DNA of 63,742 bases from Bacillota bacterium. GTDB lineage: Bacteria > Bacillota > Clostridia > Eubacteriales > Eubacteriaceae. Both the position numbers and the translations under genes were made by a program. The notes under the pieces were generated by a model, which ran no database searches, was not told where the DNA came from, and saw only the letters and a list, made by a program, of their open reading frames with translations. Location: NCBI GenBank assembly GCA_018903255.1, contig JAHIQT010000104.1, forward strand, positions 1-63,742, written 5' to 3'. Shown here piece after piece: positions 12,277 through 52,339 of this stretch; position 1 is the first letter of the stretch; every line of letters starts with the position of its first letter.

Positions 12277-12326
12277 TTTTGCGTCGATAATTGCCCGACT
12301 TCAGCGTTGGAGTCAGTTTTGGCCTT

Positions 12327-12505
12327 GAATTCGAACAATTCTCTTAGCAAAACAGGTTGGTCACAGTTTTATTTTTTGGTTACGTATGTTAGATATGCTC
12401 CCGTCGGACAAAACTATTTCCGCCTGGTGCTAAAGCAATTCTGAAGAAAAAAATGGGTCAAAGTAAATGATTCTGAATTTGAACAATTCTCTTAGCAAAA
12501 CAGGT
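12327..12505 (+). repeat. Direct repeat pair in the purH-purD gap
   Basis: Two 31-bp copies at 12327-12357 and 12475-12505 differ at one base. Both contain GAACAATTCTCTTAGCAAAA followed by CAGGT. They begin 148 bp apart and bracket about 117 bp of unique sequence. The second copy runs into a small palindrome CAGGT-ATAA-ACCTG at 12501-12514, 29 bp before the purD start. No ORF is evident between them. Possible meanings are a duplicated regulatory site or the scar of a lost insertion; nothing here decides. Confidence 0.7.
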
Positions 12506-12543
12506 ATAAACCTGAAAAATTAAGCAAAAACGAGGAGCGATAA

Positions 12544-37132: not shown

Positions 37133-38011
37133 CTAGCGGGAAGAAAGATCAGTGTAAAATTCAAAGGCTTCGGTGCCGGTGAATTTTTCGTGAACAACCT
37201 TACGAATGCTCTGGATCATCGCAACCGGGTTAGCGGCCTTGAAGACGTTGCGACCCATATCGACGCCGGCAGCGCCTTTTTGAATAGCCTGATAGGTGAT
37301 TTCCAGGGCTTCCTGTTCCGGCACCTTTTTGCCACCGGCGATAACAATCGGCACCGGACAGGCGGCGGTGACCGCTTCAAAGTTATCGCAATAGTAGACC
37401 TTGACAATCTGAACCCCGAACTCAGCCAACATTCGGGTAGCCAGCGAAAAGTATTTGTTGGTTCGTTCCATATCCTTGCCAACTGCCACCACCCCAAGTG
37501 TGGGAATACCATAACGGTTGCCGGCATCGACGGTTCTGACAATATTCTCAATGCTTTGGCATTCGTTCTCAGATCCGATAAAGGCCTGAATTGCCATACA
37601 GGTGGCGTTCATCCGGATCGCCTCTTCGACATTGACGCCGATGATTTCCTTGCTCATATCCTCTTGTAAGACCGAACTTCCGGCCGAACAACGCAGCGCG
37701 ATGGCTTTGCCGTGATCTGGTCGGATACAGGTTCGTAGTGCTCCGCGGGTGGCCATCAGGACGTCGGCATAGTCCTGCAGCGGCGGGATCGCCAAATCGA
37801 TCCGTTCCAATCCCTGGGTAGGCCCCATGATATAGCCATGATCAAAGGCCAGCATGACAGTATGACCACTGAGGGGATCAAATATTTTTGATAGCCGGGT
37901 TTTCATGCCCCAATCCACATCATCCATCCCTTTGACATGAAAATTTCGTTTTTTCATGGGTTGGTCTAAGCCGAAGTGTTTCGGAATTTTGATTGCATCC
38001 TGATCGGCCAT
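37133..38011 (-). CDS. LsrF-like class I aldolase/thiolase
   Basis: A 292-residue (beta/alpha)8 protein recognised by close resemblance to E. coli LsrF: MADxDxIK start, LKG-like VKGMDDVDWGM, TVMLAFDHGYIMGPTQGLERID, GSE...QSIENI, VGKDMERTNKYFSLATR, PVPIVIAGGKKVPEQEALE and GAAGVDMGRN. The Schiff-base lysine aligns with Lys204 in QIVKVYY. LsrF moves an acetyl unit from the processed AI-2 signal phosphate (3-hydroxy-5-phosphonooxypentane-2,4-dione) to CoA, giving DHAP and acetyl-CoA. No LsrK, LsrG or Lsr transporter is present here. The gene is last in dhaL-VOC-dhaK-lsrF, starting 2 bp after the dhaK stop with no clear ribosome site, so it is coupled. The true substrate may be a related hydroxy-ketone phosphate. 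Confidence 0.88.
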   Translation of the reverse strand: MADQDAIKIPKHFGLDQPMKKRNFHVKGMDDVDWGMKTRLSKIFDPLSGHTVMLAFDHGYIMGPTQGLERIDLAIPPLQDYADVLMATRGALRTCIRPDHGKAIALRCSAGSSVLQEDMSKEIIGVNVEEAIRMNATCMAIQAFIGSENECQSIENIVRTVDAGNRYGIPTLGVVAVGKDMERTNKYFSLATRMLAEFGVQIVKVYYCDNFEAVTAACPVPIVIAGGKKVPEQEALEITYQAIQKGAAGVDMGRNVFKAANPVAMIQSIRKVVHEKFTGTEAFEFYTDLSSR

Positions 38012-38013
38012 AA

Positions 38014-39012
38014 CTATCGACTCAAATAAGGGGTCTTAGCTGGGGCTTCCCAATAAGCCAGTTTCTCCGAATCCATTCGGGCAAAGAAGAGTTGAAAGCC
38101 GGCCTGTTCCTGAACGGTTAAAACTTCTTCTACCCAACTGGCGACAATTTTGATGCCCTTTTCGCTGAGATACATGTGAACCCGACGGAAAACCAGCAGC
38201 ATTTCCATAATCGTGGTAGCACCGGTACCGTTGACAATGACCATCACTGCTTCGCCGGATTTCAGATCCAGATCTTTGACTAGCGCATCCGCCATGATTA
38301 CAGCAGTTTCGTCGGCCGTAGCCATTTTCTGGCGCCCGCCACCGCCTTCGCCATGCTGACCCATCCCGACTTCCATTTCATCTTCGCCGAGTTCGGCAAA
38401 GGAAGCGCCATTCTGGGGATGGGTAGCGGTTTTACAAGCGACCGCAATGGTCGCCATATTATCGGCAAAATCCTGGGCAAGGGCAGCGACTTCGGCCAAC
38501 GATTTGCCCTGGGCGGCAGCGGCGCCACAGATCTTGTAGAGCGGCACACAGCCAACCAGACCACGGCGGTTGGCAGCGTCAGATCGGGGCGCATTGGCAA
38601 TATCTTCCTGGGTGACCACCTTGATGACATTTAATCCCAGCTTTTCGACCTCTTTCATGGTTCGATCACCGGCTAACATATCTCCGGCATGGTTTAACAC
38701 CACAAAAAGCACACCCTTGCCTTTATCGGCTAGCTTCAAGGCTTCTACGACGGCTTTGTAACCGGGAGCCGCAAAAATATCGCCAACCACTGAAATATCG
38801 ATCATTCCTTCACCGACAAAACCTTCTAGCGCCGGTTCATGACCAGCTCCACCAATGGTGACGATGGTAACCCGATCAGCAGTGGCCAGACCCTTATTGA
38901 TGATCAGATTGTGTTCAGTCACCTCAAGAATATTGGGATTTGCCAAGGCCAGACCTTCTAATAATTCAGCCGTAATGTTATCTGGATTGTTAATAAATTT
39001 TTTCATCGTCAT
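38014..39012 (-). CDS. dhaK: Dihydroxyacetone kinase subunit DhaK-like (copy 1)
   Basis: The 332-residue substrate-binding subunit of a two-part ATP-type ketone kinase. Residues match E. coli DhaK functional positions with a shift of two: His58 in GGAGHEPALEG, Asp111 in NHAGDMLAGD, and His220 in GMGQHGEGG, the residue that binds the carbonyl covalently. The surrounding loop (GQHGEGGGG) differs from the usual GIHGEPG, so this is a divergent subgroup and the substrate could be a DHA-like ketone such as erythrulose or a diketone. ATG follows AAGGAGAA. The neighbours dhaL and lsrF suggest a phosphorylate-then-cleave route. Confidence 0.9.
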   Translation of the reverse strand: MTMKKFINNPDNITAELLEGLALANPNILEVTEHNLIINKGLATADRVTIVTIGGAGHEPALEGFVGEGMIDISVVGDIFAAPGYKAVVEALKLADKGKGVLFVVLNHAGDMLAGDRTMKEVEKLGLNVIKVVTQEDIANAPRSDAANRRGLVGCVPLYKICGAAAAQGKSLAEVAALAQDFADNMATIAVACKTATHPQNGASFAELGEDEMEVGMGQHGEGGGGRQKMATADETAVIMADALVKDLDLKSGEAVMVIVNGTGATTIMEMLLVFRRVHMYLSEKGIKIVASWVEEVLTVQEQAGFQLFFARMDSEKLAYWEAPAKTPYLSR

Positions 39013-39059
39013 TTTATGTTCTCCTTAAATTATTATTCTAAATAGATGAGTTGGAGTAA

Positions 39060-39380
39060 TTATTTCATTTCCATTAATTCAATAACCGTGCCGTCAACTT
39101 TAACAAAGGCAATATCGAGGTGTTCATCAACCGTCATCCGTTCATTTAGAACAATCGCCTGGTGATCTTTAATAAAGCTATCGATATTAGGAACCTTGTA
39201 GGCAATGTGAGTAAAATTTACCACATCTGGGTGAAATGGGGTGCCTTCTTCAAATCTGAGATACTCAAATTTGAAAGGGTTGTTGTCCGGTCCTGAGATA
39301 TGAACTTTTAATCCCTCAGCGTAAAACTCTTCCAATACCGGTTCCTTAACCGGAACACCAATGTGCATGATTTCGTACAT
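39060..39380 (-). CDS. VOC (glyoxalase-fold) family protein
   Basis: A 106-residue single-domain VOC protein: MYEIMHIGVPVKEP start, FTHIAYKVPNIDSFIKDH in the middle and AFVKVDGTVIELMEMK at the end. His and Glu residues at the ends of strands (MHIG, FTHIAY, IELME) resemble the metal ligands of glyoxalase, epimerase or isomerase VOC enzymes. It sits between dhaL and dhaK, so it probably isomerises or protects the same carbonyl substrate. The reaction is unknown. ATG follows GGGAGAA. Confidence 0.8.
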   Translation of the reverse strand: MYEIMHIGVPVKEPVLEEFYAEGLKVHISGPDNNPFKFEYLRFEEGTPFHPDVVNFTHIAYKVPNIDSFIKDHQAIVLNERMTVDEHLDIAFVKVDGTVIELMEMK

Positions 39381-39415
39381 TTTGTTCTCCCTTCAGATTA
39401 TAAATTGAGAATTTT

Positions 39416-40042
39416 TTATGCTGAATATCCTTTGGCCAGGCCTTCGTAAAAATAGGCGAAGGTAACCGAGCCAGGATCCTGATGACCTAAACAGCGCTCG
39501 CCAATATAACGGGCGCGACCATATTTTGCCAGCATTTCGGCGGTGTTGTCAGATCCAGCCCGGGCAGCCTGGGCGGCTTTTTGCAGGGTTGTTTTCATAT
39601 CGGCGGTAGAAGTACGGATTACCTCGGTGGCTGGATAGATAGCATCCATCATGGTTTTGTCGCCAACAACTGCTTTGGAGGTTATAAAGAATTCGTCATA
39701 GGCACCGAGCAGGATGCTTTTAATAAAGGCGTCAGTACTTGGGGCATTGGGATCGGCGGCCGCTGCCATACCATAAATAAAAGCTCCAAACAAGGGTCCG
39801 GCTGAACCGCCGCTAACATCTTCGAGCGCGTCGTTGAGGGATTCAAGCCCTTCTTTCAGGTTGGTTGTTTGATCCCAGCTTTCTAGTTTGTCAAACATGA
39901 CATTGGTCAGCTTTTTCATGGTTGTCCCATGATCGCCATCGCCCAGCGCGCAATCCAGATCAGTCAGAACATCAACATGAGCGGCAATTTCCCGGGCGGC
40001 AGCAAGCAGTAGATTTTTTACTTTCACTGGTTCTAGTGACAT
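39416..40042 (-). CDS. dhaL: Dihydroxyacetone kinase ATP-binding subunit DhaL
   Basis: A 208-residue helical barrel protein that binds Mg-ADP/ATP and phosphorylates the substrate held by DhaK. Asp30, Asp35 and Asp37 (TDLDCALGDGDHG) match the Mg-binding aspartates of E. coli DhaL. DVSGGSAGPLFGAFIYGMA and GERCLGHQDPGS are also conserved. No dhaM phosphotransferase gene is present, so ATP exchange rather than PTS phosphate is likely. Start chosen at ATG 40042 after GGAGGTGA; the frame is open 39 codons further upstream across the promoter. First gene of the operon, with a good promoter at 40107-40079. Confidence 0.92.
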   Translation of the reverse strand: MSLEPVKVKNLLLAAAREIAAHVDVLTDLDCALGDGDHGTTMKKLTNVMFDKLESWDQTTNLKEGLESLNDALEDVSGGSAGPLFGAFIYGMAAAADPNAPSTDAFIKSILLGAYDEFFITSKAVVGDKTMMDAIYPATEVIRTSTADMKTTLQKAAQAARAGSDNTAEMLAKYGRARYIGERCLGHQDPGSVTFAYFYEGLAKGYSA

Positions 40043-40078
40043 TAGTTCACCTCCACAATCGTTTACATCTTTGTCACC

Positions 40079-40107
40079 AGTATAACAAGTGGCAAAGGGG
40101 AAGTCAA
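40079..40107 (-). promoter_or_regulatory. Promoter of the dhaL-VOC-dhaK-lsrF operon
   Basis: Minus strand TTGACT (40107-40102), 17-bp spacer, TATACT (40084-40079). It lies inside the longest open frame of dhaL, which supports the shorter start. Confidence 0.8.
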
Positions 40108-40117
40108 ATAAAAATAG

Positions 40118-40187
40118 CATATGTTTAACATGAATAAAGAGAAATCCAATAATATACACTAAATAATGGATATACTTGACATATGTT
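40118..40187. promoter_or_regulatory. Paired CATATGTT sites in the dhaL/sorC divergent region
   Basis: The octamer CATATGTT occurs at 40118-40125 and 40180-40187, 62 bp apart, about six helical turns. The first continues as TAACATG, making a near-palindrome upstream of the dhaL -35. The second overlaps the -35 of the SorC regulator. Candidate binding sites for that regulator, allowing looping. Confidence 0.5.
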
Positions 40188-40204
40188 AGGTATTGTTATA
40201 TATT
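40176..40204 (+). promoter_or_regulatory. Promoter of the first SorC-type regulator
   Basis: TTGACA at 40176-40181, 17-bp spacer, TATATT at 40199-40204. Confidence 0.8.
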
Positions 40205-40246
40205 AGACAATAAGAAGATGACAACCAAAGAGATTGGAGTAGACAA

Positions 40247-41170
40247 ATGAAAGCAAAAGAATTGTTGCGACTGATCGAAATTTCAAAATTATATTATGAA
40301 GAAAATAAGACCCAGGCAGAAATCGCCAGGATCATGGATATTTCCAGACCTTCAGTAAGTAGTTTATTAAGCAAGGCCAGAAAGGAGGGGATTGTAAAAA
40401 TTGATATCCTCGCCTATCAAGAATCCAACATGGGATTGTCTCAGGGCTTATCTCGCCGTTTTAATCTTAAAACCTGTCAGGTGGTGGAATCGGCAGAAGC
40501 TTTCCACCAGGAGTCAGCAACGGTTTTATTAAATTATCTTGATAAAACCAGGGTTTTGGGTTTGGGATGGGGCTATAATATTAATAAAATGATTGAAGCT
40601 ATGCCTCAGAAAAATGACAACGAAACTGCCCAGGGGATTGTCTGCCCGATAATCGGCACGGCCACTGTCCCCCATCGCGGGTATCATCCCAATGAATTGG
40701 CCACCGATCTATCCCATAAAACCGGGTTTCAAGCGGAATATTTAATCAGCCCGGCCTTTCCAACCACCGAACAAGATCAGGATTTGTTCATGAACACCAA
40801 TAATTATCTTGATATTCTAGAACGATGGCGGAAAATGGATACAGCGATTATCACGGTCGGCAGTTTTCCCTTGGTACCGGATCATGGAACCGCACTGCGG
40901 TTTGGCAAGAAATTGATTCAGGAAAAAGCAGTTGGCAGTCTGCTGTCCTATTTTTTTAATCTTCAGGGTGAGCAGATTTTGGGGGATGATGATTATGCCA
41001 TCCAGATTCCCTTAAGGCTTTTGGCACGGATCAAAGATGTTATCGGTATTGTTCCGCCGGAATCCAATATTAATGCCGTTGTCAGTTGTTTGCAAAGCGG
41101 TTATATCCGACATCTGGTAATTACCGAACAGAATGCCAAGGATGTTCTTAAGCAAATTGAAAGCAATTGA
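40247..41170 (+). CDS. SorC/LsrR-family sugar-responsive transcriptional regulator (copy 1)
   Basis: A 307-residue regulator with an N-terminal helix-turn-helix (LYYEENKTQAEIARIMDISRPSVSSLLSKARKEGIV, about 15-50). The larger C-terminal phospho-sugar-binding domain contains the GLGWG phosphate loop and a later CLQSGYIRHLVITE. SorC proteins include LsrR, DeoR of Bacillus and CggR, which sense phosphorylated metabolites. Divergent from dhaL-VOC-dhaK-lsrF, it is the natural candidate to control that operon in response to the phosphorylated product. A close paralogue lies at 49236-50168. Confidence 0.92.
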   Translation: MKAKELLRLIEISKLYYEENKTQAEIARIMDISRPSVSSLLSKARKEGIVKIDILAYQESNMGLSQGLSRRFNLKTCQVVESAEAFHQESATVLLNYLDKTRVLGLGWGYNINKMIEAMPQKNDNETAQGIVCPIIGTATVPHRGYHPNELATDLSHKTGFQAEYLISPAFPTTEQDQDLFMNTNNYLDILERWRKMDTAIITVGSFPLVPDHGTALRFGKKLIQEKAVGSLLSYFFNLQGEQILGDDDYAIQIPLRLLARIKDVIGIVPPESNINAVVSCLQSGYIRHLVITEQNAKDVLKQIESN

Positions 41171-41204
41171 TACCTGATTCCAAAGTTATTGTGGTAGGTA
41201 ATAC

Positions 41205-41233
41205 TTGCATTAAGGGGGATTTATCGGTACAAT
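41205..41233 (+). promoter_or_regulatory. Candidate promoter of the DeoR-type regulator
   Basis: TTGCAT at 41205-41210, 17-bp spacer, TACAAT at 41228-41233. A second possible -10, TATAAT, sits at 41235-41240. Confidence 0.5.
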
Positions 41234-41348
41234 TTATAATCGTAGCGGTGTTCTAAATGAGTTTTGGCTAAGCCAGCGAAAAATGTCCGTGATGATCCGA
41301 GAAAAATTCAGGCCGGTTCAACAAAGGGCATTTTGTAAGGAGAAAAAA

Positions 41349-42116
41349 ATGTTGCATATTGACCGTAGAAAAGAAATTTTAAATACAATTATGGGCAAAG
41401 GTTCGGTAAAAGTCGCCAGTCTTTCAGAAAAATATGGCGTCGGTGAGGCAACCATCCGCCGGGATTTAAAATACCTGGCTGAAGAGTATGGGATTACCCT
41501 ATCCTATGGTGGCGCTTACCGGAAAGAAAAGATCAACTATCAAACGACCTCGGAAATGGATATTTATAAAAAGCGCACCCAGAATATCGAGGAGAAACGC
41601 TTCATTGCCGAAAAGGCCGCCAAACTGATTGAAAATGGTGATACGATCGCATTAAATGCGGGTAGCACCGTGGAACTGATGCTTGATTATCTTGACGATA
41701 CATCCGAGATCAATTTAATTACGCTTTCGCTTAATGTCGCTTTAAAAGCATCCGCTATCCCAGGTATCACAGTCTACATGCCGGGCGGCAAGTTGCGCAA
41801 TTTTTCCGGGGCATTTTATGGCAAAGAAGCCAATGCGTTTCTAAAGAGCTTCAATATCGACAAAGCGTTTATGGGGGTTATGGCGGTATCGATTGATAAG
41901 GGGATCACCCATGGTGCCTTTGAAGAAATCGAAATCAATCAAACGATTTATGAAATCAGCCGGAAATGTTACCTGATGGCAGATTATTCCAAGTTTGATA
42001 AGGTTTCGCTGACCAAAATGGTTGATTTGAATGTCTTTGACGGTTTTATTCTGGATGATAAGACTCCGGAGCTTTATCGGGAATACTGTAAAAGTAATAA
42101 TATTGCGGTCATTTAA
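41349..42116 (+). CDS. DeoR/GlpR-family transcriptional regulator
   Basis: A 255-residue repressor-type protein. The N-terminal winged helix (RRKEILNTIMGKGSVKVASLSEKYGVGEATIRRDLKYLAEE) fits the DeoR signature, and the C-terminal sensor domain has IALNAGSTVELMLDYL and GGKLRNFSGAFYG. Such proteins usually respond to a phosphorylated sugar or polyol, for example G3P for GlpR. Start at ATG 41349 after AAGGAG; the frame is open upstream to 41283 but that would exceed the family length. It precedes the GlpK-like kinase and methyltransferase genes and probably represses them. Confidence 0.9.
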   Translation: MLHIDRRKEILNTIMGKGSVKVASLSEKYGVGEATIRRDLKYLAEEYGITLSYGGAYRKEKINYQTTSEMDIYKKRTQNIEEKRFIAEKAAKLIENGDTIALNAGSTVELMLDYLDDTSEINLITLSLNVALKASAIPGITVYMPGGKLRNFSGAFYGKEANAFLKSFNIDKAFMGVMAVSIDKGITHGAFEEIEINQTIYEISRKCYLMADYSKFDKVSLTKMVDLNVFDGFILDDKTPELYREYCKSNNIAVI

Positions 42117-42169
42117 AAGCTAGCCGACCATGCCAGAATACAAAGACAAATTAAAAAGAAATAATAGCG

Positions 42170-42198
42170 ACGCATCGAATCTGACGATGCGTTTTTTT
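42170..42198 (+). terminator. Terminator after the DeoR-type gene
   Basis: Stem ACGCATCG / CGATGCGT, loop AATCTGA, then seven T. It separates the regulator transcript from the kinase operon. Confidence 0.9.
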
Positions 42199-42240
42199 AT
42201 GGAAATTTCTAGTGTGTCACTGATGGTAGTACTGTGATTT

Positions 42241-42268
42241 TTGACGCAAAGATAAAAAAACATATAAT
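42241..42268 (+). promoter_or_regulatory. Candidate promoter in the 570-bp gap before the kinase gene
   Basis: TTGACG at 42241-42246, 16-bp spacer, TATAAT at 42263-42268. It would drive a short transcript over 42275-42430, which holds only a 25-codon ORF. Confidence 0.45.
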
Positions 42269-42352
42269 CGGAGCAAAAACAACTGATTCGTAAAATAATG
42301 GGTATAATTATTTCGAAAACGAACGGATTGCAAAAGAGTAAAGGAATAAACA

Positions 42353-42430
42353 TTGAAAAAATACAGAAGTGAACACGAACTCATTATAAAATCACTACAA
42401 AAACGACATAAAACGATTGACAACGATTAA
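42353..42430 (+). CDS. Possible 25-residue ORF upstream of the kinase promoter
   Basis: TTG start preceded by AAAGGA, 25 codons beginning MKKYRSEHELIIKSLQKRHK. Basic and polar, not recognised. Its last codons overlap the -35 box of the kinase promoter. It could be a remnant of a lost gene. Confidence 0.2.
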   Translation: MKKYRSEHELIIKSLQKRHKTIDND

Positions 42431-42445
42431 TTATCGTGATATATT
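42417..42445 (+). promoter_or_regulatory. Promoter of the GlpK-like kinase operon
   Basis: TTGACA at 42417-42422, 17-bp spacer, TATATT at 42440-42445. Transcription would begin near 42452, leaving a 5' leader of about 235 nt. The leader has no recognised riboswitch but contains a hairpin at 42591-42626. Confidence 0.8.
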
Positions 42446-42476
42446 CTAGCTAATAGATAGTAAATCGTGATATATT
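42433..42476. promoter_or_regulatory. Repeated operator candidate at the kinase promoter
   Basis: ATCGTGATATATT occurs twice, at 42433-42445 (covering the -10 box) and at 42464-42476 (just downstream of the start site), 31 bp apart, about three helical turns. The second copy extends to ACGA and is a near-palindrome TCGTG-ATATAT-TACGA minus one pair. Likely repressor sites, probably for the adjacent DeoR-type protein. Confidence 0.6.
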
Positions 42477-42590
42477 ACGAAAATGCTGTGTTTCAGTTTT
42501 CCCTCGACGATAAAGAGCCATTCGATTACAACTGCGTGAAGTGCTTCCTCCAAATAAATCAAATGATCCGCGTGTAAATTCAAAAATTCA

Positions 42591-42626
42591 GTCTGAATTG
42601 CTATGATGGCATTTCATAAATCAGAC
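42591..42626 (+). promoter_or_regulatory. Hairpin in the kinase leader RNA
   Basis: GTCTGA / TCAGAC arms with an inner ATGA...TCAT pairing, about 60 nt before the kinase start. No T tract follows, so it is not a terminator. Confidence 0.4.
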
Positions 42627-42686
42627 AGCTAAGATAGAGCAGGCCAGGAGATTCCCATATCCAAATAATTTTAAAGGAGTAGAAAA

Positions 42687-44174
42687 ATGGAAAAGTATGT
42701 ACTCGTTATTGATGAAGGGACTACCGGTACCAGAGCTTTGATTTTCAATCAAAAACTGCAAATTGTTGCTCAAAGCTATGATGAATTCACACAGTACACA
42801 CCAGGGGAAGACAAGGTTGAGCATGATGCTTTAGAAATTTATGAAAAAAGCGTCGCAATGTGCAAAAAAGCCATTGGCGAGGCGATGATTGCGCCGGAAG
42901 AAATTGCCTCGATCGGGATTACCAATCAACGGGCAACCTGTCTGGTTTGGGATAAGAATACCGGTGAGCCCCTGTACAACGCAATCGTTTGGCAGGATAC
43001 CCGAACTGCCGCTTTTTGCCAGGAACTCAATGCTGGCGAGTGGGGAGAAAAAGCCAGAAAAACAACGGGCTGGACTTTAGCACCAGTTTATTCTTCGATG
43101 ATGCTCAACTGGTATATCAACAATGTTCCCCTTATCAAAGAAAAAATTGAAGCTGGGGAAGCGCTCTTTGGTACCATTGACACCTGGCTGATCTGGAAAT
43201 TAACCGGCGGAAAGAAACATGCGGTTAGTTACTCCAATGCCTCGGTTATGGGAAGTCTCGATTTAAAAACCGGTCAATGGTACGACGAATTCCTGACCTA
43301 TCTTGGCATCGACACAAAAATATTCCCTGAAATAATTACTGATTCAGGAGACTATGGGATCACGCTAAAAGATATTCTCGGCGCAGAAATTCCGATTAAT
43401 GGCGTTATTGCAGATCAACATGCCGCCTTATTTGCCCAGGGTTGCCGAACCGCCGGAACCGGTAAGATTACCAATGGCACCGGCTCCTTCTTAGATATTA
43501 ATGTCGGTACAGAATGTGTTATTTCGGATCAGGGACTTAACACGGTTATTGCCTGGAAACTTGGTGACACAATGACCTATGCCCTGGAGGGCTATGAGTC
43601 GGTTACCGGTTCAGCAGTACAATGGCTCAGAGACGGTCTGGAAGTGATAACCGAGTCCAGCGAAACTGAAGCATTGGCACGATCAGTCGAAGACGCCAAT
43701 GGTGTATACTTTGTCCCAGCTCTTGCCGGTTTAAGTGCCCCATATCATGATCCCTATGCTCGCGGTACGATTTTCGGGATTACCAGAGGGACAAAAAAAG
43801 CCCATCTGGTTAGAGCAACATTAGAAGGAATTGCTTTTCGGCTCAAAGATATTATGGATGTTGTCGGCAACGAAGCAGGGATTAAAATGAAAACCATTCG
43901 GATCGACGGTGGCGCCTCCAAAAATAATCTACTGGCTCAAATGATGGCTGATATGATGGATGTTCAGGTAGATCGTCCTTTCTCGGTTGAAGCGACCAGC
44001 TTAGGTGCGGCTGAAATGGCCGGTCTTTATATCGGGTTATGGAACGAAGCCGATTTTGATGCAGCACTGACCATCGATGCCAGTTTTATTCCCGAAATAT
44101 CACAAGAAAAGCGCACGAAAGCCTACAAAGGCTGGCAAGAAGCGATCAAACGTTCAATGAACTGGAATGTTTGA
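42687..44174 (+). CDS. FGGY-family carbohydrate kinase, GlpK-like with altered substrate pocket
   Basis: A 495-residue ASKHA-fold kinase whose overall sequence resembles glycerol kinase (VIDEGTTGTRALIF, GITNQRA, NAIVWQDTRTA, IDTWLIWKLTGG, TNGTGSF, DGGASKNNLLAQMMAD). By eye alignment, of the five E. coli glycerol contacts Arg83, Asp245 and Gln246 are kept (Arg82, Asp243, Gln244). Glu84 is replaced by Ala83 (NQRAT for NQRET) and Tyr135 by Val134 (LAPVYS for LDPYFS). The pocket should be larger and less polar, so a substituted glycerol or other polyol is plausible. No glpF or glpD is nearby. ATG follows AAAGGAG. Annotating this as plain glpK would be risky. Confidence 0.88.
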   Translation: MEKYVLVIDEGTTGTRALIFNQKLQIVAQSYDEFTQYTPGEDKVEHDALEIYEKSVAMCKKAIGEAMIAPEEIASIGITNQRATCLVWDKNTGEPLYNAIVWQDTRTAAFCQELNAGEWGEKARKTTGWTLAPVYSSMMLNWYINNVPLIKEKIEAGEALFGTIDTWLIWKLTGGKKHAVSYSNASVMGSLDLKTGQWYDEFLTYLGIDTKIFPEIITDSGDYGITLKDILGAEIPINGVIADQHAALFAQGCRTAGTGKITNGTGSFLDINVGTECVISDQGLNTVIAWKLGDTMTYALEGYESVTGSAVQWLRDGLEVITESSETEALARSVEDANGVYFVPALAGLSAPYHDPYARGTIFGITRGTKKAHLVRATLEGIAFRLKDIMDVVGNEAGIKMKTIRIDGGASKNNLLAQMMADMMDVQVDRPFSVEATSLGAAEMAGLYIGLWNEADFDAALTIDASFIPEISQEKRTKAYKGWQEAIKRSMNWNV

Positions 44175-44347
44175 TTTAAAGTCAATCGCTAAATGAATCA
44201 ATGCTGAGATGCGCAAAATAAAACAATTGTATGGCGATTATCAATTTCTCGGTTGATGAGATTGAACGTTTCAAGAAAATTAATCATTTTAATGACCGGC
44301 TGATCCTTGCTTCATTTGAATGAAATGATTGATACAAGGAGGAAAAA

Positions 44348-45499
44348 ATGAATTCACGAGAAAGAGTTATGACTGCAGCCAATCACCGGGAACCCGATCG
44401 GGTACCGGTGGATATGGTGTTAACCATCGATGTGTATCGGGATATGAAAAAGGTGCTAAATATGGAGCACCTGCCTGAATCTCCAAGAATGGGGCGGTGG
44501 ACAGAAGTACAGATGCCCATCGAAATGATAAAAAAATTAGGAATAGACATGTATTATATTTCTCCGCGATCAGGCGTTTCGATTCATACCAAAAGTTTTG
44601 ATGATGGCAGCTTTATTGACGAGTGGGGATGTTACTGGAAAAAAACCGCCATTGACGGCGGCCACTTCTATTTCGAACTGGTCAATCCGCCACTGGAAAA
44701 TGCCACGATAGCAGATCTGGACAGCTATGACTGGCCAGATCCGGAAGACCCCAAACGTTATGCTGGTCTCAAGGAAGAAATGAAAGAGGTGCGTGAAACC
44801 ACCGATTTGGCAATTCTAGCAAAATTTGCCGGAGCAGTTTTTGAACTGGCCACCTATATGAGAGGTCACGAACGGTGGTATCGCGATATTATCAACAACC
44901 AGGAATTTGCCCATGCCTTAATGGATAGAATCTGTCAGATTCAGAAGCGCACCAATGAGGTGATTATGGCTGAGGTGGGAGAATATGTTGACATCCTCAG
45001 GCTCAGCGGTGAAGATCTGGGGATGCAAGATCGGCCGCTGATTTCGCCTAAAACATTTAAGAAAGTCGTTAAGCCCCATTTGCAGGAGCTTTGGGAACAT
45101 GCTAAAAAGACCCTGCATCAGTATAATCCTGAAGCCAAAATCATGTTGCATACCTGTGGAGCGGTACGTCCCTTTATTCCGGATTTGATTGAAAGCGGAG
45201 TCGACATCCTGGATCCGGTGCAGCCAGGCGCCAAGGACATGAATCGCTTTGAATTAAAAGCAGCCTTTGGTGATGCGATCGTTTTTCATGGCAATATTGA
45301 CATTCAGAAGATTCTTCCTTTTGGTAGCAAAGAAGATATTACCAATGAGGTGCGCGAGGCAATCAAAGCACTAGCTCCCGGTGGTGGATTCTTGTTGGCA
45401 CCGGCACATAATGTCCAGGGCGATGTGAGTGCCGAAAAATTAGTGCACATGGTTAATTGTGTCCATGAATTTGGAAATTATCCGATCCAATTGGACTAA
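44348..45499 (+). CDS. UroD-fold corrinoid-dependent methyltransferase
   Basis: A 383-residue uroporphyrinogen-decarboxylase-superfamily protein of the kind that moves methyl groups to or from corrinoid proteins. This superfamily includes MtaA/MtbA and, as I recall, methyltransferase I of acetogen O-demethylases. The Zn site appears as His268 and Cys270 in LHTCG, with His354 in APAHN as a probable third ligand, where MtaA has Cys. MNSRERVMTAANHREPDRVPVD at the start is the usual UroD N-terminus. The corrinoid-protein gene starts 22 bp after its stop. A role as substrate-specific demethylase is favoured because the partner is adjacent. ATG follows AAGGAGG. Confidence 0.88.
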   Translation: MNSRERVMTAANHREPDRVPVDMVLTIDVYRDMKKVLNMEHLPESPRMGRWTEVQMPIEMIKKLGIDMYYISPRSGVSIHTKSFDDGSFIDEWGCYWKKTAIDGGHFYFELVNPPLENATIADLDSYDWPDPEDPKRYAGLKEEMKEVRETTDLAILAKFAGAVFELATYMRGHERWYRDIINNQEFAHALMDRICQIQKRTNEVIMAEVGEYVDILRLSGEDLGMQDRPLISPKTFKKVVKPHLQELWEHAKKTLHQYNPEAKIMLHTCGAVRPFIPDLIESGVDILDPVQPGAKDMNRFELKAAFGDAIVFHGNIDIQKILPFGSKEDITNEVREAIKALAPGGGFLLAPAHNVQGDVSAEKLVHMVNCVHEFGNYPIQLD

Positions 45500-45521
45500 A
45501 TTAAATGACGGGAGAATAGAA

Positions 45522-46157
45522 ATGGAAATTCTAAAAAAGATAACCGAAACCCTCTATGATGGCGATGAATTTGCCATGCCGGAACTTGTTAAGGAAGCCA
45601 TAAAAGCAGGTGCAAGCCCGCAGCAGGTGCTCGATGCGATGATGGACGGCATGGCCATTGTCGGAGATGAGTTCAGCCGCGATGAGTTATACATACCAGA
45701 AGTGCTGTGCTCTTGTCACGCCATGATGGAAGGATCAAAAATTCTAAAGCCACTATTAACAGATAGCGATGCCAAAGCTCTGGGAACTGTTATTCTTGGC
45801 AGTGTTCAGGGCGATATGCATGACATTGGCAAGAATTTAGTCGGAATGATGTTAGAAGGCCGGGGCTTAAAAGTCATTGACATCGGTATTGATGTACCTG
45901 CTGAAAAATTTGTTGAAGCAGCTATAAAACACCAGGCCGATATTGTCGCCTGTTCAATTTTGCTCACCACCACCATGCCAGAGACACCCAAGGTGGTCAA
46001 GGCTTTTGTCGATGCCGGGATCCGCGATCAGGTAAAAATTATGATTGGCGGGGCACCAATTACCCAGGAATTCTGTGACCGGATGGGCTGTGATGCTTAT
46101 GCTAAGGATGCCGGAGCAGCTGCCGCAATGGCGGTAGCCCTGGTCAGTAAAGCATGA
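45522..46157 (+). CDS. Corrinoid protein (methyltransferase partner)
   Basis: A 211-residue B12-binding methyl carrier. Residues 1-85 form the helical cap domain (MDGMAIVGDEFSRDELYIPEVL). Residues 88-211 form the Rossmann-like cobalamin domain with GDMHDIGKNLV, where His100 is the lower axial Co ligand, and TTTMPETPKVVK and MIGGAPIT further on. Start at ATG 45522 after GGGAG; the open frame extends back into the methyltransferase gene but without a ribosome site. Length and motifs match MtaC/MttC/MtvC-type proteins. No second methyltransferase or reductive activator is encoded nearby, so those functions must be supplied from elsewhere. Confidence 0.94.
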   Translation: MEILKKITETLYDGDEFAMPELVKEAIKAGASPQQVLDAMMDGMAIVGDEFSRDELYIPEVLCSCHAMMEGSKILKPLLTDSDAKALGTVILGSVQGDMHDIGKNLVGMMLEGRGLKVIDIGIDVPAEKFVEAAIKHQADIVACSILLTTTMPETPKVVKAFVDAGIRDQVKIMIGGAPITQEFCDRMGCDAYAKDAGAAAAMAVALVSKA

Positions 46158-46257
46158 AATTTTATACCTTGAAATATCGTGCTCTAAAAATATCATAATA
46201 AACATTTTTGATTAAAAAGACAAGAACAGCTTGAACAGCTTTAAACTCAATAATAAG

Positions 46258-46297
46258 AAGGCAGCTAATCGATTTCTGATTGGCTGCCTTATATTTT
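46258..46297. terminator. Terminator between the corrinoid gene and convergent dhaK copy 2
   Basis: AAGGCAGC(T)AATC / GATT-GGCTGCCTT stem, loop GATTTCT, then TATATTTT. Both strands have suitable flanks. Confidence 0.8.
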
Positions 46298-46351
46298 GGA
46301 TAAAAGTATAGTTGACAAGGAAGGCCTTAAAAAGCATGCAAATACATATTT

Positions 46352-47350
46352 TTATCGTACCAGATAGGGCGTTCGGGCTGGCGCATTCCAATAACAGAGG
46401 GTCTGATTATTCATGCGGGCAAAAAACAATTGAAAGCCGGCTTGTTCCTGAACGGTCAAAACTTCTTCAACCCAATTTGCGACAATCTTGATACCTTTGT
46501 CATTTAAATATTTGTGAACACATCTAAAAATGATCAGCATCTCCATGATGGTGGTGGAGCCGGTGCCATTGACAATCACCATGATTTCCTCACCGGCACA
46601 AAGATTTAGATCAGCAATCAGCAAATCTGTCATCAGGATGGCCGTTTCATCCGCATTCTTCATTTTTTGACGGTCACCGCCGCCTTCACCATGCTGACCC
46701 ATACCAATTTCCATTTCATCAAAACCAAGTACCCAAAAAGCCGAGCCGTTTTGGGGATGGGTTGCCGTTTTGGAGGCCACCGCAATGGTTGCCATATTAT
46801 CAGCAAAGTCCTGGGCAATGGCAGTGACTTCGCAAAGCGATTTTCCCTGGGCGGCAGCAGCACCGACAATTTTGTACAGTGGGACACATCCCACCAGGCC
46901 GCGCCGTCGTTCTGCCGCAGAACGGGGTGCAAAGGCAACGTCCTCACGGATAACAACCATCGAAACCGCAATTCCGGCACGACGGGCTTCTGCGACGGTT
47001 CTGGTGCCGGCCATCATATCACTGGCGTGGTTTAAGACAATTAGAACAACACCCTTACCCTTATCAGCAAGCCGAAGCGCTTCAAAGACTGCCTTATAGC
47101 TTGGCGCTGCAAAAATATCACCAACCACCGCAACATCAATCATCCCATCACCAACAAATCCTTCGCAGGCGGGTTCATGACCAGATCCACCCAAGGTCAC
47201 GATGGTGACGCGGTTAGCGTTATGAAGGCCTTTGCTGACGACAAGATTATTGGGTCTGACCTCAAGAATAAATGGATTGGCAAGAGCCAGCCCTTCTAGT
47301 AACTCAGAGGTGATGTTTTCCGGTTTATTAATGAATTTTCTTAGATTCAT
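46352..47350 (-). CDS. Dihydroxyacetone kinase subunit DhaK-like (copy 2)
   Basis: A 332-residue paralogue of the protein at 38014-39012, colinear along its whole length. His58, Asp111 and His220 are all kept (GGSGHEPACEG, NHASDMMAGT, GMGQHGEGG), so it should bind a carbonyl substrate. There is no dhaL beside it, so it must share the DhaL at 39416-40042 or one elsewhere, or act as a binding or sensing protein. DhaK-DhaL complexes also regulate transcription in some bacteria. It is transcribed alone, divergent from the LytTR regulator, with three 21-bp repeats in the shared upstream region. Start ATG 47350 follows AAAGGAA. Confidence 0.9.
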   Translation of the reverse strand: MNLRKFINKPENITSELLEGLALANPFILEVRPNNLVVSKGLHNANRVTIVTLGGSGHEPACEGFVGDGMIDVAVVGDIFAAPSYKAVFEALRLADKGKGVVLIVLNHASDMMAGTRTVAEARRAGIAVSMVVIREDVAFAPRSAAERRRGLVGCVPLYKIVGAAAAQGKSLCEVTAIAQDFADNMATIAVASKTATHPQNGSAFWVLGFDEMEIGMGQHGEGGGDRQKMKNADETAILMTDLLIADLNLCAGEEIMVIVNGTGSTTIMEMLIIFRCVHKYLNDKGIKIVANWVEEVLTVQEQAGFQLFFARMNNQTLCYWNAPARTPYLVR

Positions 47351-47416
47351 GGCAGGGTTCCTTTTTATTTCATAGTTTGTTTCATCGGTTATTCTATGAT
47401 TAATACTAGCAAAAAT

Positions 47417-47478
47417 TTGTCATTAAAACAATCATGGTGTCACGAAAACAATGTTTAGTGTCACCAAAAATCATGTTA
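47417..47478. promoter_or_regulatory. Three tandem 21-bp repeats (candidate LytTR binding sites)
   Basis: Repeats start at 47417, 47437 and 47458. Units 2 and 3 begin GTGTCAC(G/C)AAAA; unit 1 begins TTGTCATTAAAA. Each has a second conserved part near AAT(C/G). The 20-21-bp period equals two helical turns, like the direct repeats bound by LytTR proteins. The block lies upstream of the LytTR regulator promoter and also upstream of divergent dhaK copy 2. Confidence 0.65.
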
Positions 47479-47501
47479 AAAGGATAAATGAGAGTAAATG
47501 A

Positions 47502-47530
47502 TTGTAACAGCGACTGAGATACGTTATAAT
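47502..47530 (+). promoter_or_regulatory. Promoter of the LytTR two-component pair
   Basis: TTGTAA at 47502-47507, 17-bp spacer, TATAAT at 47525-47530. The three 21-bp repeats end 23 bp upstream, in an activator-like position. Confidence 0.75.
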
Positions 47531-47576
47531 TATTTAATTGTTAAGTATAGTTTTAACTGGAATAATAGGTGAAAAG

Positions 47577-48290
47577 ATGTTAAAAATAGCGGTCTGCGAA
47601 GACGAGGAACAACATAGAAGAATATTGGTTGACTTGATTAGTCGTTATCCATTTAAAAGCGACTATTGTTTAACTACCTTTTCGTTTGGTTATGAACTCG
47701 TTGCAGCGATTAACAATCGTCGAGATTTTGATGTTATTTTTCTAGATATGCGATTAGATCAGGAAGATGGCATTGATATTGCAAATGAAATCAGAAAAAC
47801 TGGTAATACCGCCCGAATTATCATTACAACATCCTTAATAGAGTATGCAGTACTGGGTTATTCCGTTAATGCCAGTGATTTTTTATTAAAACCATTTCCT
47901 GAAGATAAATTGTTTCAGGTTTTAGAAAAGCTCGAAAATGGCATCAGTCAGTCACGATCCAAGGTTCATGAGATCGATTATAATGATGAAAAAATACTAC
48001 TTAGAAGTGATGAGATCTTATATTTTGAGAGTCTCGGCAGAAAAATAAAGGTCGTCACCTTTGAGGCTGAATACACCTATAACTACACCATCTCGGCGCT
48101 GGAAAAGGAACTCGATCCAGTCCGCTTTGTTTTATGTCATCGCTCTTATATTGTTAATCTAAAAAATGTAAAAAGTATCAAGACAAGAATGGCAGTATTA
48201 AAAAATGGTGTCATGCTGCCCATCAGTCCTAAAAGGAATCAAAGGGTTTATGATGCTTTTACTCGTTATATGGCAGGAACGATCGAATGA
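47577..48290 (+). CDS. LytTR-family response regulator
   Basis: A 237-residue regulator of the AgrA/LytR type. The receiver domain has VCEDEEQHR, phospho-acceptor Asp57 in VIFLDMRLDQEDG and the conserved Lys in FLLKPF. The C-terminal LytTR DNA-binding domain (about 137-237) includes ILYFESLGRKIKV, FVLCHRSYIVNL and MLPISPKRNQRV. Start at ATG 47577 after AGGTGA; the open frame runs back to 47538 without support. The kinase gene overlaps its end by 4 bp. Probable targets are the three repeats upstream and hence dhaK copy 2. Confidence 0.9.
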   Translation: MLKIAVCEDEEQHRRILVDLISRYPFKSDYCLTTFSFGYELVAAINNRRDFDVIFLDMRLDQEDGIDIANEIRKTGNTARIIITTSLIEYAVLGYSVNASDFLLKPFPEDKLFQVLEKLENGISQSRSKVHEIDYNDEKILLRSDEILYFESLGRKIKVVTFEAEYTYNYTISALEKELDPVRFVLCHRSYIVNLKNVKSIKTRMAVLKNGVMLPISPKRNQRVYDAFTRYMAGTIE

Positions 48291-49147
48291 AAAGGTCATC
48301 AAAGATTCGCAATATTGTCCTTTTTAGCATTCCCCTTATCAGTTTGATTGTCGGCTTAAACCTGTATTACATCGATGTCTACGTCGAAGGCAGGCATCTG
48401 GTCGGCTTCGTATCCTTGGCTGCGTTGGTCTATATCAATGTGGTTATTTTTGCAATCTTAAAAGTATGGGATCATGAAAGCAAGAAGATAAGCGAATACA
48501 AGACTGTCAATATTCAGCTCGAACTGCAACAAAAACACTATAAAGAAATGCTCGAAAAAAATTATGAGGTGAGAGGCTTATGGCATGATATGAACAACCA
48601 TATCATTACCATGCAATATTTAATCAAAAACCAGGCCAGTGACGAAATCGAGGTTTATTTACAACAATTTCATGAGTTGCTCCAGAATGCGGTGGATCAT
48701 AATCGCTCTGGAAATTATGTTGTGGATGCGCTGCTGAATTATAAAATTAAGGTTGCGTCAGATAATCAGATAAACTTTGTCCATTATATTGCTATTCCGG
48801 AAAAACTTAAAATGAACAGCATTGACCTGTCAATTATTCTGGGTAATGTTTTAGACAATGCCATCGAGGGATGTCTGCGTGATTCGCGTCAACATCAGGA
48901 AAAAATAATTAAGTTTAATATGTACTACAAGCGCGAAAGCCTGCTGATTGATATTGAAAACACCATTGATGTAAAGACAATCCAAAAAGCGGGAAACAAC
49001 ATGGTCAGCAGCAAGCGGATTGATGGTGATCAAAACGGCTATGGGATTTCAAATGTTAAACAAGTTTTAAAGAGATATGAAGGAAACATGGTTACTCAAA
49101 TCCTTGAAGATCGCTTTAAATGCACCATTCTGATACCCTTGGATTAG
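48287..49147 (+). CDS. GHKL-type sensor histidine kinase with minimal membrane sensor
   Basis: A 286-residue AgrC/CitS-like kinase. Two membrane helices (about 8-30 and 38-61) are joined by a loop of only about eight residues, so there is no extracellular sensing domain. A coiled coil follows (62-95), then the phospho-accepting His100 in RGLWHDMNNH. The ATPase N-box is NVLDNAIEG (187-195) and the G-box is GYGISNV near 253. Most relatives have five to seven helices, so this is a reduced sensor. It starts 4 bp inside the response-regulator gene and surely acts with it. The signal may be membrane-borne, or cytosolic through a partner such as DhaK copy 2. Confidence 0.88.
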   Translation: MKRSSKIRNIVLFSIPLISLIVGLNLYYIDVYVEGRHLVGFVSLAALVYINVVIFAILKVWDHESKKISEYKTVNIQLELQQKHYKEMLEKNYEVRGLWHDMNNHIITMQYLIKNQASDEIEVYLQQFHELLQNAVDHNRSGNYVVDALLNYKIKVASDNQINFVHYIAIPEKLKMNSIDLSIILGNVLDNAIEGCLRDSRQHQEKIIKFNMYYKRESLLIDIENTIDVKTIQKAGNNMVSSKRIDGDQNGYGISNVKQVLKRYEGNMVTQILEDRFKCTILIPLD

Positions 49148-49150
49148 CTT

Positions 49151-49167
49151 GAATCGAGAACCGATTC
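49151..49167. repeat. Small inverted repeat after the sensor kinase gene
   Basis: GAATCG / CGATTC arms, loop AGAAC, immediately after the kinase stop and just upstream of the second SorC promoter. No T tract; operator or weak processing site. Confidence 0.35.
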
Positions 49168-49170
49168 AAA

Positions 49171-49199
49171 TTGACAAAAGCTGATCAATGCGATATATT
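49171..49199 (+). promoter_or_regulatory. Promoter of the second SorC-type regulator
   Basis: TTGACA at 49171-49176, 17-bp spacer, TATATT at 49194-49199: the same boxes and spacing as the promoter of copy 1. Confidence 0.8.
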
Positions 49200-49235
49200 A
49201 TATCTGCATTTACATAGTCAAGGTGAGGTAATTTG

Positions 49236-50168
49236 TTGAAAGAAAAAGAATTGTACCGTTTAATACATGTTTCGCAGTTATATTATGAGCAAAATAAAAC
49301 CCAGTCCGAAATTGCTAAAGAGTTAGATATATCTCGTCCCGCGGTCAGTTATCTGTTAAATAAGGCCAGAAAAGCGGGGATTGTGAAAATAGATGTGCTT
49401 TCCTATCATCGTACAATCAGAGGGATCAGGCATGAATTGTGCCACCGCTTTAACCTGCAAAGCTGTCGTGTCGTCACCTTGCCAGATGATCTATATCAAA
49501 TTGGCGCGGATGTGCTGCTCGAATTTTTGCCAAAGACCAAGATTCTTGGTTTGGGTTGGGGTTATAATATCGATAAGATTATTGCTAAAATTTCTCCTCA
49601 ATATCTGGTTGAGAACAATAGTGGCATTATTTGTCCGCTAATTGGTGCCACAACCGCGCCGCAGCGGGGTTACAACCCGGATGATTTGGTGAAGGAGCTG
49701 GCGCTAAGAACAAATCGGCAAGGACTATTTCTCAATTGTCCGGCGATTCCCGCTACCGCGGAAGAACATGCCGAGGTGATAGCTTCTGATGATTATCTGT
49801 GCATTGAAGAGTATTGGAGAAAAACAACAACGGCATTGATAACCCTGGGTAGTTATCCCTCAGTGCCAGATCATGCTTCGGCAATGCGCTTTGGCAGAAA
49901 GCTAATAGAAGAAAAGGCGGTTGGCTGCTTGCTGACCTATTTCTTTAATCCTCAGGGGGAATTGATTGATAGCGAGGATGACTATGCCATCCAGATTCCC
50001 TTAGAACTATTAGCCCGGGTTAGAGATGTGATCGGATTTGTACCTCAGGAAGCCAACGTTGATTCAATTATTAGTGGTTTGAAAAGCGGTTATTTCAAAC
50101 ATCTGATTATTACCGAAACGCTGGCAAGTCAAATAATTAAACAGCTCGATAGCGAGCAAGCTGTCTAG
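49236..50168 (+). CDS. SorC/LsrR-family transcriptional regulator (copy 2)
   Basis: A 310-residue paralogue of the regulator at 40247-41170, alignable end to end (HTH KTQSEIAKELDISRPAVSYLLNKARKAGIV, GLGWGYNIDK, VPDHASAMRFGRKLIEEKAVG). TTG codons occur at 49233 and 49236; the second is chosen because it gives MKEKELYRLI, matching MKAKELLRLI of copy 1, and sits about 8 nt after AGGTGAGG. Likely senses a phosphorylated ligand made by the nearby kinases. A strong terminator follows, closing the island. Confidence 0.9.
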   Translation: MKEKELYRLIHVSQLYYEQNKTQSEIAKELDISRPAVSYLLNKARKAGIVKIDVLSYHRTIRGIRHELCHRFNLQSCRVVTLPDDLYQIGADVLLEFLPKTKILGLGWGYNIDKIIAKISPQYLVENNSGIICPLIGATTAPQRGYNPDDLVKELALRTNRQGLFLNCPAIPATAEEHAEVIASDDYLCIEEYWRKTTTALITLGSYPSVPDHASAMRFGRKLIEEKAVGCLLTYFFNPQGELIDSEDDYAIQIPLELLARVRDVIGFVPQEANVDSIISGLKSGYFKHLIITETLASQIIKQLDSEQAV

Positions 50169-52246: not shown

Positions 52247-52339
52247 ATGGTTTACCTCCATAAATTTGTAACTGACGGCATCAAATAAATGCCGCCAGTT
52301 TTGTTGTTATCGCTTTTTCTGATTGGTTTACGGTAACGA

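Follow-up and report, generated by a model that had tools for sequence, protein, structure and literature searches.

A possible three-block island of DhaK-, LsrF- and corrinoid methyltransferase-related genes in a relative of Acetobacterium

Several described systems are the closest points of comparison for an island of thirteen genes at positions 37133-50168 of a 63,742-nucleotide stretch of Bacillota DNA (assembly GCA_018903255.1, contig JAHIQT010000104.1; the whole stretch is hereafter the window). In the Escherichia coli lsr operon, the FGGY kinase LsrK, LsrG and the thiolase LsrF follow a kinase-isomerase-lyase logic under a SorC/LsrR-type regulator, alongside the Lsr transporter. The phosphotransferase system-dependent dihydroxyacetone (DHA) kinase consists of DhaK, DhaL and DhaM, and a DhaQ-type paralogue of DhaK acts as a coactivator. 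The acetogen O-demethylases (MtvB, OdmB, VdmB) and CdmBCA combine a UroD-type methyltransferase (MT1) with a corrinoid protein and a methyl-tetrahydrofolate:corrinoid methyltransferase (MT2).

Set against these systems, one part of the island (block A) varies the LsrF theme, and a second (block B) varies that of the O-demethylase systems. From computed gene families, block independence, conserved residues and a predicted VOC fold we infer the substrates and activities of its parts. The reading that we favour, to which we give about even weight, is that the island is not one pathway but three adjoining blocks, A, B and C, that are separately inherited. Among the literature matches listed, which were open-licence papers, no description of the block A or block B cluster was found.

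Three adjoining blocks and their distribution

The window corresponds to contig C46 of an 83% complete genome (2.9 Mb) whose nearest named relatives are Acetobacterium. Its island is bounded by lepA (35226-37031) and a DUF2207 gene (50321-52261). Gene families were assigned to the open reading frames of the island by Pfam and NCBIfam profile scans; Rfam, at gathering threshold, and tRNA scans of the window gave no match. Block A comprises lsrF, dhaK1, a VOC-fold gene (voc), dhaL and a SorC-type regulator gene; block B a DeoR-type regulator gene, a glpK-like kinase gene, uroD and a corrinoid protein gene; and block C dhaK2, a LytTR/GHKL pair and a second SorC-type regulator gene. A prediction made earlier from the letters of this DNA (hereafter the original prediction) had listed these genes, and all of those it named are present among the open reading frames and family assignments; its count of five regulators is correct if the GHKL kinase is included.

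Separate inheritance is indicated by a comparison of the window with fourteen 17-20 kb stretches around lsrF and eleven 7.7-20 kb stretches around uroD from relatives. Blocks A and C occur together in L033, where deoR is kept and the other block B genes are gone, and in L032, which retains deoR and a uroD remnant. Block B stands alone in L060 and with block C in L061, and block C stands alone in L093 and L094, as judged by the size of the neighbouring genes. Block B was also found at two loci (L062, L063) where neither lepA nor the DUF2207 gene was seen. In Eubacterium, blocks A and B lie apart, as in G024, where lsrF maps to 1.82 Mb and uroD to 0.24 Mb, and physical linkage of the two was seen only in part of Acetobacterium. 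Furthermore, loci from Eggerthella, Phascolarctobacterium, Synergistaceae and other hosts carry block A but no block B genes, and an orthologue of deoR (67-90%) stands beside block B in L060-L063, L065, L066 and L068, all of which lack block A.

Within block B, conversely, uroD and the altered glpK were rarely found apart. Co-occurrence was counted over 40 genomes of the family, with Fisher p values uncorrected for relatedness: 16 genomes carry both genes, one carries each singly and 22 carry neither (p 4e-9). The lone uroD (G007) is a fragment that contains a stop, and the lone altered glpK (G026) lies at a contig end.

Block A and the autoinducer-2 question

The lsrF gene of block A (37133..38011, reverse strand) belongs to the class I aldolase/thiolase family and scores 425.5 bits on NF006081, above the cut-off of 297. 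Its product is 55% identical to E. coli LsrF and keeps D57, K203 and D251, which the consulted part of an earlier study proposes as catalytic residues (PMC2728841). All three were present in each of the 45 LsrF frames taken from the fetched loci, a set limited to lengths of 270-340 aa. The adjoining dhaK1 (38014..39012, reverse strand) encodes a divergent DHA-kinase-type substrate-binding subunit (Dak1, 318.7 bits), 33% identical to E. coli DhaK, with H56, D109 and H218 retained. Both this protein and the DhaK2 of block C match the Pfam Dak1 model but, with 269.5 and 265.9 bits respectively, fall below the dhaK1 equivalog cut-off of 406.25. Across DhaK-like frames of 300-380 aa, D109 and H218 are found in 70/70 and H56 in 67/70, the exceptions being two block C copies and one other.

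The nucleotide-binding kinase subunit is encoded by dhaL (39416..40042, reverse strand; Dak2, 137.4 bits). The open frame extends to 40159, and the start lies probably near 40042, because the alignment to E. coli DhaL begins at residue 40 of this frame. Residues D30, D35, D37 and H38 of E. coli DhaL are kept, as they are in all 67 frames of 190-260 aa. Block A thus resembles DhaKLM in its DhaK and DhaL families and in these residues of both subunits; it differs in having no adjoining DhaM (none was detected among the island proteins), in the low identity and sub-equivalog score of DhaK1, and in its VOC and lyase partners. SorC-type regulator 1 (SorC1; 40247..41170, forward strand; Sugar-bind, 114.5 bits) is divergent from dhaL.

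Between the two kinase subunit genes lies voc (39060..39380, reverse strand), which encodes a 106-aa protein. No sequence match to it was obtained in Pfam or NCBIfam (E <= 0.001) or among PDB sequences, and the protein was therefore folded by prediction. The resulting model (mean predicted local distance difference test score, pLDDT, 96.1) has a VOC fold by its Foldseek matches, which bears out the VOC gene of the original prediction. The match list is headed by a Rhodococcus protein and a mitomycin-binding protein, followed by two Clostridium acetobutylicum glyoxalases, one of them Ni-bound, with methylmalonyl-CoA epimerase and the dioxygenase HPPD lower down. Residues H6, E39, H58 and E101 are invariant in 50/50 aligned sequences (the window and 49 of the 58 listed frames), a set that we take to be the metal set of glyoxalase I. 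From this predicted fold and these residues, the protein is a probable metal-dependent isomerase or epimerase.

Block A is a compact cassette whose distribution extends well outside the acetogens. A DhaK alignment scanned against GTDB genome contigs gave 415 relatives, of which the best 80 were kept, corresponding to 76 distinct loci. Counting genes within 2.8 kb of dhaK in these and one further locus (L083), a set that describes close relatives only, we found dhaL in 72 of 77 loci, voc in 70, a SorC-type regulator in 49, lsrF in 47, a class II aldolase in 14 and DeoC in one. The first two lyases never occur together in one locus. For the class II aldolase, the cbbA subfamily cut-off of 215.6 bits is exceeded by the L116 copy (222.9) and narrowly missed by the L095 copy (213.6), and the lyase of L156 passes the DeoC cut-off. 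Hosts include Eubacterium, Lachnospiraceae, Clostridioides difficile, Phascolarctobacterium, Eggerthella (with a lyase other than LsrF) and its kin, Synergistaceae, Propionibacteriaceae, Anaerolineae, Planctomycetaceae and Desulfovibrio.

The occupation of the same place by three unrelated lyases suggests a shared chemistry in which a ketose 1-phosphate is cut to dihydroxyacetone phosphate (DHAP) and a small fragment. DhaK enzymes phosphorylate the hydroxyl adjoining a ketone. In the mechanism that we propose, DhaK1 would bind a small ketose or diketone and DhaL would help to phosphorylate the hydroxyl beside its carbonyl; the VOC protein would act on the adjacent carbon, shifting or inverting it by way of a metal-bound enediolate; cleavage of the chain to DHAP and a small fragment would fall to LsrF or, in other species, to the class II aldolase; and SorC1 would respond to the phosphorylated product.

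The alternative that survives best, which we nevertheless regard as doubtful, is that block A breaks down autoinducer-2 (AI-2; 4,5-dihydroxy-2,3-pentanedione, DPD), with DhaK1-DhaL standing in for LsrK, the VOC protein for LsrG, and LsrF acting as the thiolase that yields DHAP and acetyl-CoA. This is consistent with the score of LsrF above the thiolase equivalog cut-off and its retention of the proposed catalytic residues, with the position of voc after lsrF in most relatives (not in the window), as lsrG follows lsrF in E. coli, and with the presence of LuxS in 37/40 family genomes, including that of the window. Among the 50 block A host genomes tested, drawn from the 76 loci and of unstated completeness, however, LuxS was found in 20 and not found in 30. 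The Lsr transporter was not found among the island proteins of the window, nor were LsrK, LsrG or LsrACDB among the thirteen island proteins scanned, the island FGGY kinase scoring 106 bits on the AI-2 kinase model against a cut-off of 528. Also, the class II aldolase replaces LsrF in 14/77 loci, and to our knowledge such an enzyme would not perform the thiolase step. AI-2 is therefore a possible substrate in LsrF-bearing hosts but does not explain the whole cassette, and a tie of block A to self-made AI-2 was set aside on the LuxS counts. A known substrate for block A would account for LsrF genes otherwise read as AI-2 processing genes, some of them in hosts in which LuxS was not detected.

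Several loci found during this survey have features of their own. A clostridial locus (L084, G206) has the look of a genuine lsr operon: by reading, it encodes a kinase resembling LsrK and a regulator resembling LsrR and has transporter-sized genes, and its lsrF (12072-12956) is split by a single in-frame stop. A DUF1097 membrane protein, possibly a permease, is encoded between lsrF and voc in Anaerolineae (L142:11910-12464) and Propionibacteriaceae (L144:6120-6710), the latter copy lying just under the Pfam cut-off. In the same Propionibacteriaceae locus (L144:7126-11598), block A is followed by genes for a GldA-type dehydrogenase, a DeoC-like protein, a HAD-like protein and an FGGY kinase, and a similar HAD-DeoC-FGGY set is found in L204. 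In Phascolarctobacterium (L111:13400-18035), a gene for an ABC binding protein of the PF04392 type comes after block A, along with, by reading, a second such gene and transporter-like genes.

Block B, a putative methyltransferase system beside an altered glycerol kinase

The gene uroD (44348..45499, forward strand) encodes a UroD-superfamily methyltransferase (URO-D, 110 bits), the probable MT1. H268 and C270 are invariant in 17/17 sequences and correspond to the His-x-Cys of MtaA (4ay7), with Gly at the position of the later Cys of MtaA (His-Cys-Gly), a Cys that we take to be the third Zn ligand. According to the part of a published account that was available, O-type enzymes depart from a His-Cys-Cys Zn site (PMC10418091); by that rule, His-Cys-Gly fits O- rather than S-methyl transfer. 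The corrinoid protein gene (45459..46157, forward strand; B12-binding and B12-binding_2) has an uncertain GTG start that overlaps uroD. Its product scores 183.1 bits on pyl_corrinoid, below the cut-off of 215.3, and the best solved match is 1y80 (181.4 bits). MT2 was found in 8/15 fetched loci with an intact uroD, and the one copy scanned, in L028, scores 348 bits against a cut-off of 259.

The kinase gene (42687..44174, forward strand; NF000756, 580.7 bits) encodes a GlpK-type FGGY kinase with an altered glycerol pocket. Its product shares 42% identity with E. coli GlpK and retains R83, W103, D245 and F270, whereas E84 is replaced by Ala (A83) and Y135 by Val (V134); both changes are found in 14/14 orthologues aligned. 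R83, E84, W103, Y135 and D245 are presumably the glycerol-contacting residues of GlpK. The resulting motif NQRAT contrasts with NQRET in all 13 other GlpK loci of the family examined (L183-L195; copies of about 46% identity, examined among many more listed), as the original prediction of an altered FGGY kinase had it, and NQRET is also present in two further GlpK proteins of the same genome (L202, L203). Four other GlpK paralogues (L196-L199) have Ser or Asn at the Glu84 position; their neighbours, by reading, are SDR-like and transketolase-like genes, an FAD-linked oxidase gene or a glycyl-radical-enzyme-like gene. Upstream of the altered glpK, on the same strand, lies the DeoR-type regulator gene (41283..42116; DeoRC, HTH_DeoR).

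Where gene order changes, the altered glpK remains beside uroD. Four Eubacterium loci (L065, L066, L068, L069) are arranged as a gene of 189-212 aa, uroD, a second FGGY kinase gene, the corrinoid protein gene and the altered glpK, followed by oxidoreductase-sized genes, with deoR seen in three of the four. A scan of L065 identified GlpP, two FAD oxidoreductases, one of them with BON and BFD domains, and DUF1667; we label these oxidoreductase genes GlpABC-like. E. barkeri and E. aggregans carry both uroD and the altered glpK, on different contigs. As an observation in its own right, an Acetobacterium-like genome (L030:7445-14268) has two uroD-corrinoid gene pairs flanking the altered glpK. Also, elsewhere in the genome of the window (L222:6778-8384), a gene for a second kind of UroD protein (354 aa) and a short corrinoid-like gene lie 5 kb from an ordinary dhaL and a DhaM-like gene.

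On sequence grounds, block B is a putative corrinoid methyltransferase system linked to a GlpK whose glycerol pocket is altered. It resembles the O-demethylases and CdmBCA in its UroD-type MT1, its corrinoid protein and, in some relatives, MT2, and differs from them in the tie to a GlpK-type kinase, in the divergence of its UroD protein and, in Eubacterium, in the accompanying GlpP and GlpABC-like genes. The UroD protein is only 20.6-26.4% identical to ten paralogues in its own genome, seven of which form a group of 52-83% identity (an eleventh matched over 20 residues only), and its membership in that seven-paralogue group was set aside on these values. Block B probably demethylates a methoxylated glycerol-like compound. 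The methyl donor would be an aliphatic ether, most likely a methoxylated form of glycerol or of a similar polyol. The UroD protein would transfer its methyl group to the corrinoid protein, from which the group would pass on to tetrahydrofolate for the Wood-Ljungdahl pathway; the altered GlpK would phosphorylate the glycerol-like part, and in Eubacterium the GlpABC-like enzymes would oxidise the product. The demethylation put forward in the original prediction is plausible, in that the UroD and corrinoid proteins, with MT2 in part of the loci, resemble an acetogen methyltransferase system, and a methoxylated polyol is a fair guess. If block B does act on methoxylated glycerol-like compounds, the methyl donors of acetogens would be widened to aliphatic polyol ethers.

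More tentatively, block A may be a widespread ketose 1-phosphate pathway as yet undescribed, with a new sugar-phosphate isomerase of the VOC type and lyases that replace one another. Block B may likewise be the first corrinoid route to act on O-methylated polyols, its glycerol kinase having been rebuilt to take a methyl glyceryl ether.

Among the remaining alternatives, it is improbable that the UroD protein acts on a haloalkane, as in the Cdm type, on an aromatic ether or on another methyl donor, with the GlpK neighbour being incidental. From the portion of the cdm report that was consulted (PMC13222342), the MT1-corrinoid protein-MT2 order of L028, from A. dehalogenans, is the cdmBCA order described in the same species, and cdmB is stated to occur in Eubacterium; the CdmB structures did not come up in searches of PDB sequences. 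That source also describes CdmB, compared here by description, as near to the O-demethylases, whereas the block B UroD protein is remote from the seven-paralogue group, which we assume to hold the O-demethylases. Furthermore, the altered GlpK keeps company with uroD despite changes of gene order, and both persist in E. aggregans and E. barkeri.

We also think it unlikely that the island serves ordinary glycerol and DHA dissimilation with spare enzyme copies. The GlpK-like kinase, DhaK and DhaL do come from glycerol-metabolism families, and the Eubacterium operon has GlpP. Ordinary dhaK and dhaL with a DhaM-like gene (L222; DhaM by reading) are found elsewhere in the same genome, however, and since it also has the NQRET-type GlpK proteins, plain DHA or glycerol would already be served. 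The pocket change in every aligned orthologue of the kinase and the score of DhaK1 far under the DHA kinase equivalog cut-off likewise argue against such a role.

A number of results weigh against separate inheritance and the chemistry proposed for the methoxylated polyol and ketose 1-phosphate routes. Blocks A and B are statistically associated and in that sense not independent: lsrF and uroD occur together in 11 family genomes, lsrF only in 4, uroD only in 6 and neither in 19 (p 0.003), and lsrF and the altered glpK together in 12, singly in 3 and 5 and neither in 20 (p 0.0003). For block A, 15/77 loci have no known lyase near dhaK, comprising the Acetobacterium block C copies L092-L094, three more near a sequence edge and nine that are unexplained; and with a drug-binding protein among the best matches and a dioxygenase lower in the list, calling the modelled VOC protein an isomerase is a guess. 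For block B, MT2 is not in the cluster of the window, and acetyl-CoA synthase (ACS) was not found in the 83% complete metagenome-assembled genome, with ACS present in 27/40 family genomes, 18/18 other members of the genus and 16/16 other uroD genomes. A search for distant UroD relatives in 391 genomes of the class (E <= 1e-60, at most four candidates scored per genome) gave eight matches outside the orthologues, including another protein of G027. By profile, a corrinoid protein was not found in the eight stretches around them, several of which contain, by reading, ABC or TRAP transporter genes and sugar-type genes. This hints that these relatives form a carbohydrate-related clade, making it less certain that the protein is a methyltransferase in every host. 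E. limosum SA11, which was not compared for block B, is recorded in the part of a growth study considered as not growing on glycerol or 2-methoxyethanol (PMC4791908).

Least probable is the single pathway of the original prediction, in which a methoxylated polyol or ketone would be demethylated and its backbone passed through DhaKL and LsrF. All three blocks do lie between lepA and the DUF2207 gene in four other family genomes (L028-L031), so that the arrangement is more than chance, and this shared place and the associations above speak for a single pathway; the occurrence of the blocks without each other in other relatives leaves a role of DhaKL and LsrF in the UroD pathway unsupported. Even among those four genomes the exact gene order of the window recurs only in L029, the order within block B varying.

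Block C and a flanking gene

Block C begins with dhaK2 (46352..47350, reverse strand; Dak1, 318.1 bits), which encodes a second DhaK-like subunit without its own DhaL, 73% identical to DhaK1. It is followed on the forward strand by genes for a LytTR response regulator (47538..48290; LytTR, 70.3 bits; Response_reg, 62.7 bits), a GHKL sensor kinase (48287..49147; HATPase_c_5, 69.0 bits) and SorC-type regulator 2 (SorC2; 49233..50168; Sugar-bind, 85.3 bits). The same set of dhaK2, two-component pair and SorC2 genes recurs in L061, L093 and L094. Because two regulators and a sensor kinase adjoin dhaK2 and DhaL is absent, a sensor role is the simplest reading of DhaK2, and block C probably senses a related sugar, which DhaK2 would detect on behalf of SorC2 and the LytTR/GHKL pair. 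By analogy, DhaK2 may be compared with DhaQ in standing beside regulators without its own DhaL, and differs in its LytTR/GHKL and SorC neighbours. Alternatively, DhaK2 may be catalytic with a borrowed DhaL; in G017, which has block C without block A, two DhaL-sized PF02734 genes are found elsewhere.

His56 of DhaK2 is replaced by Asn in 3/11 copies (L030, L031 and L032, the latter two recovered again as L088 and L090) and kept in the other eight, including that of the window, with D109 and H218 present in all. On these replacements, the view of dhaK2 as a plain duplicate of dhaK1 was set aside, which, given the His of the window, is a lean and not proof.

Beyond the DUF2207 gene, positions 53803-55578 of the window encode a protein of 591 aa whose one match, to PEPCK_ATP, lies below the cut-off; a HAD gene adjoins it, and relatives of 82-88% identity are found in neighbouring genomes.

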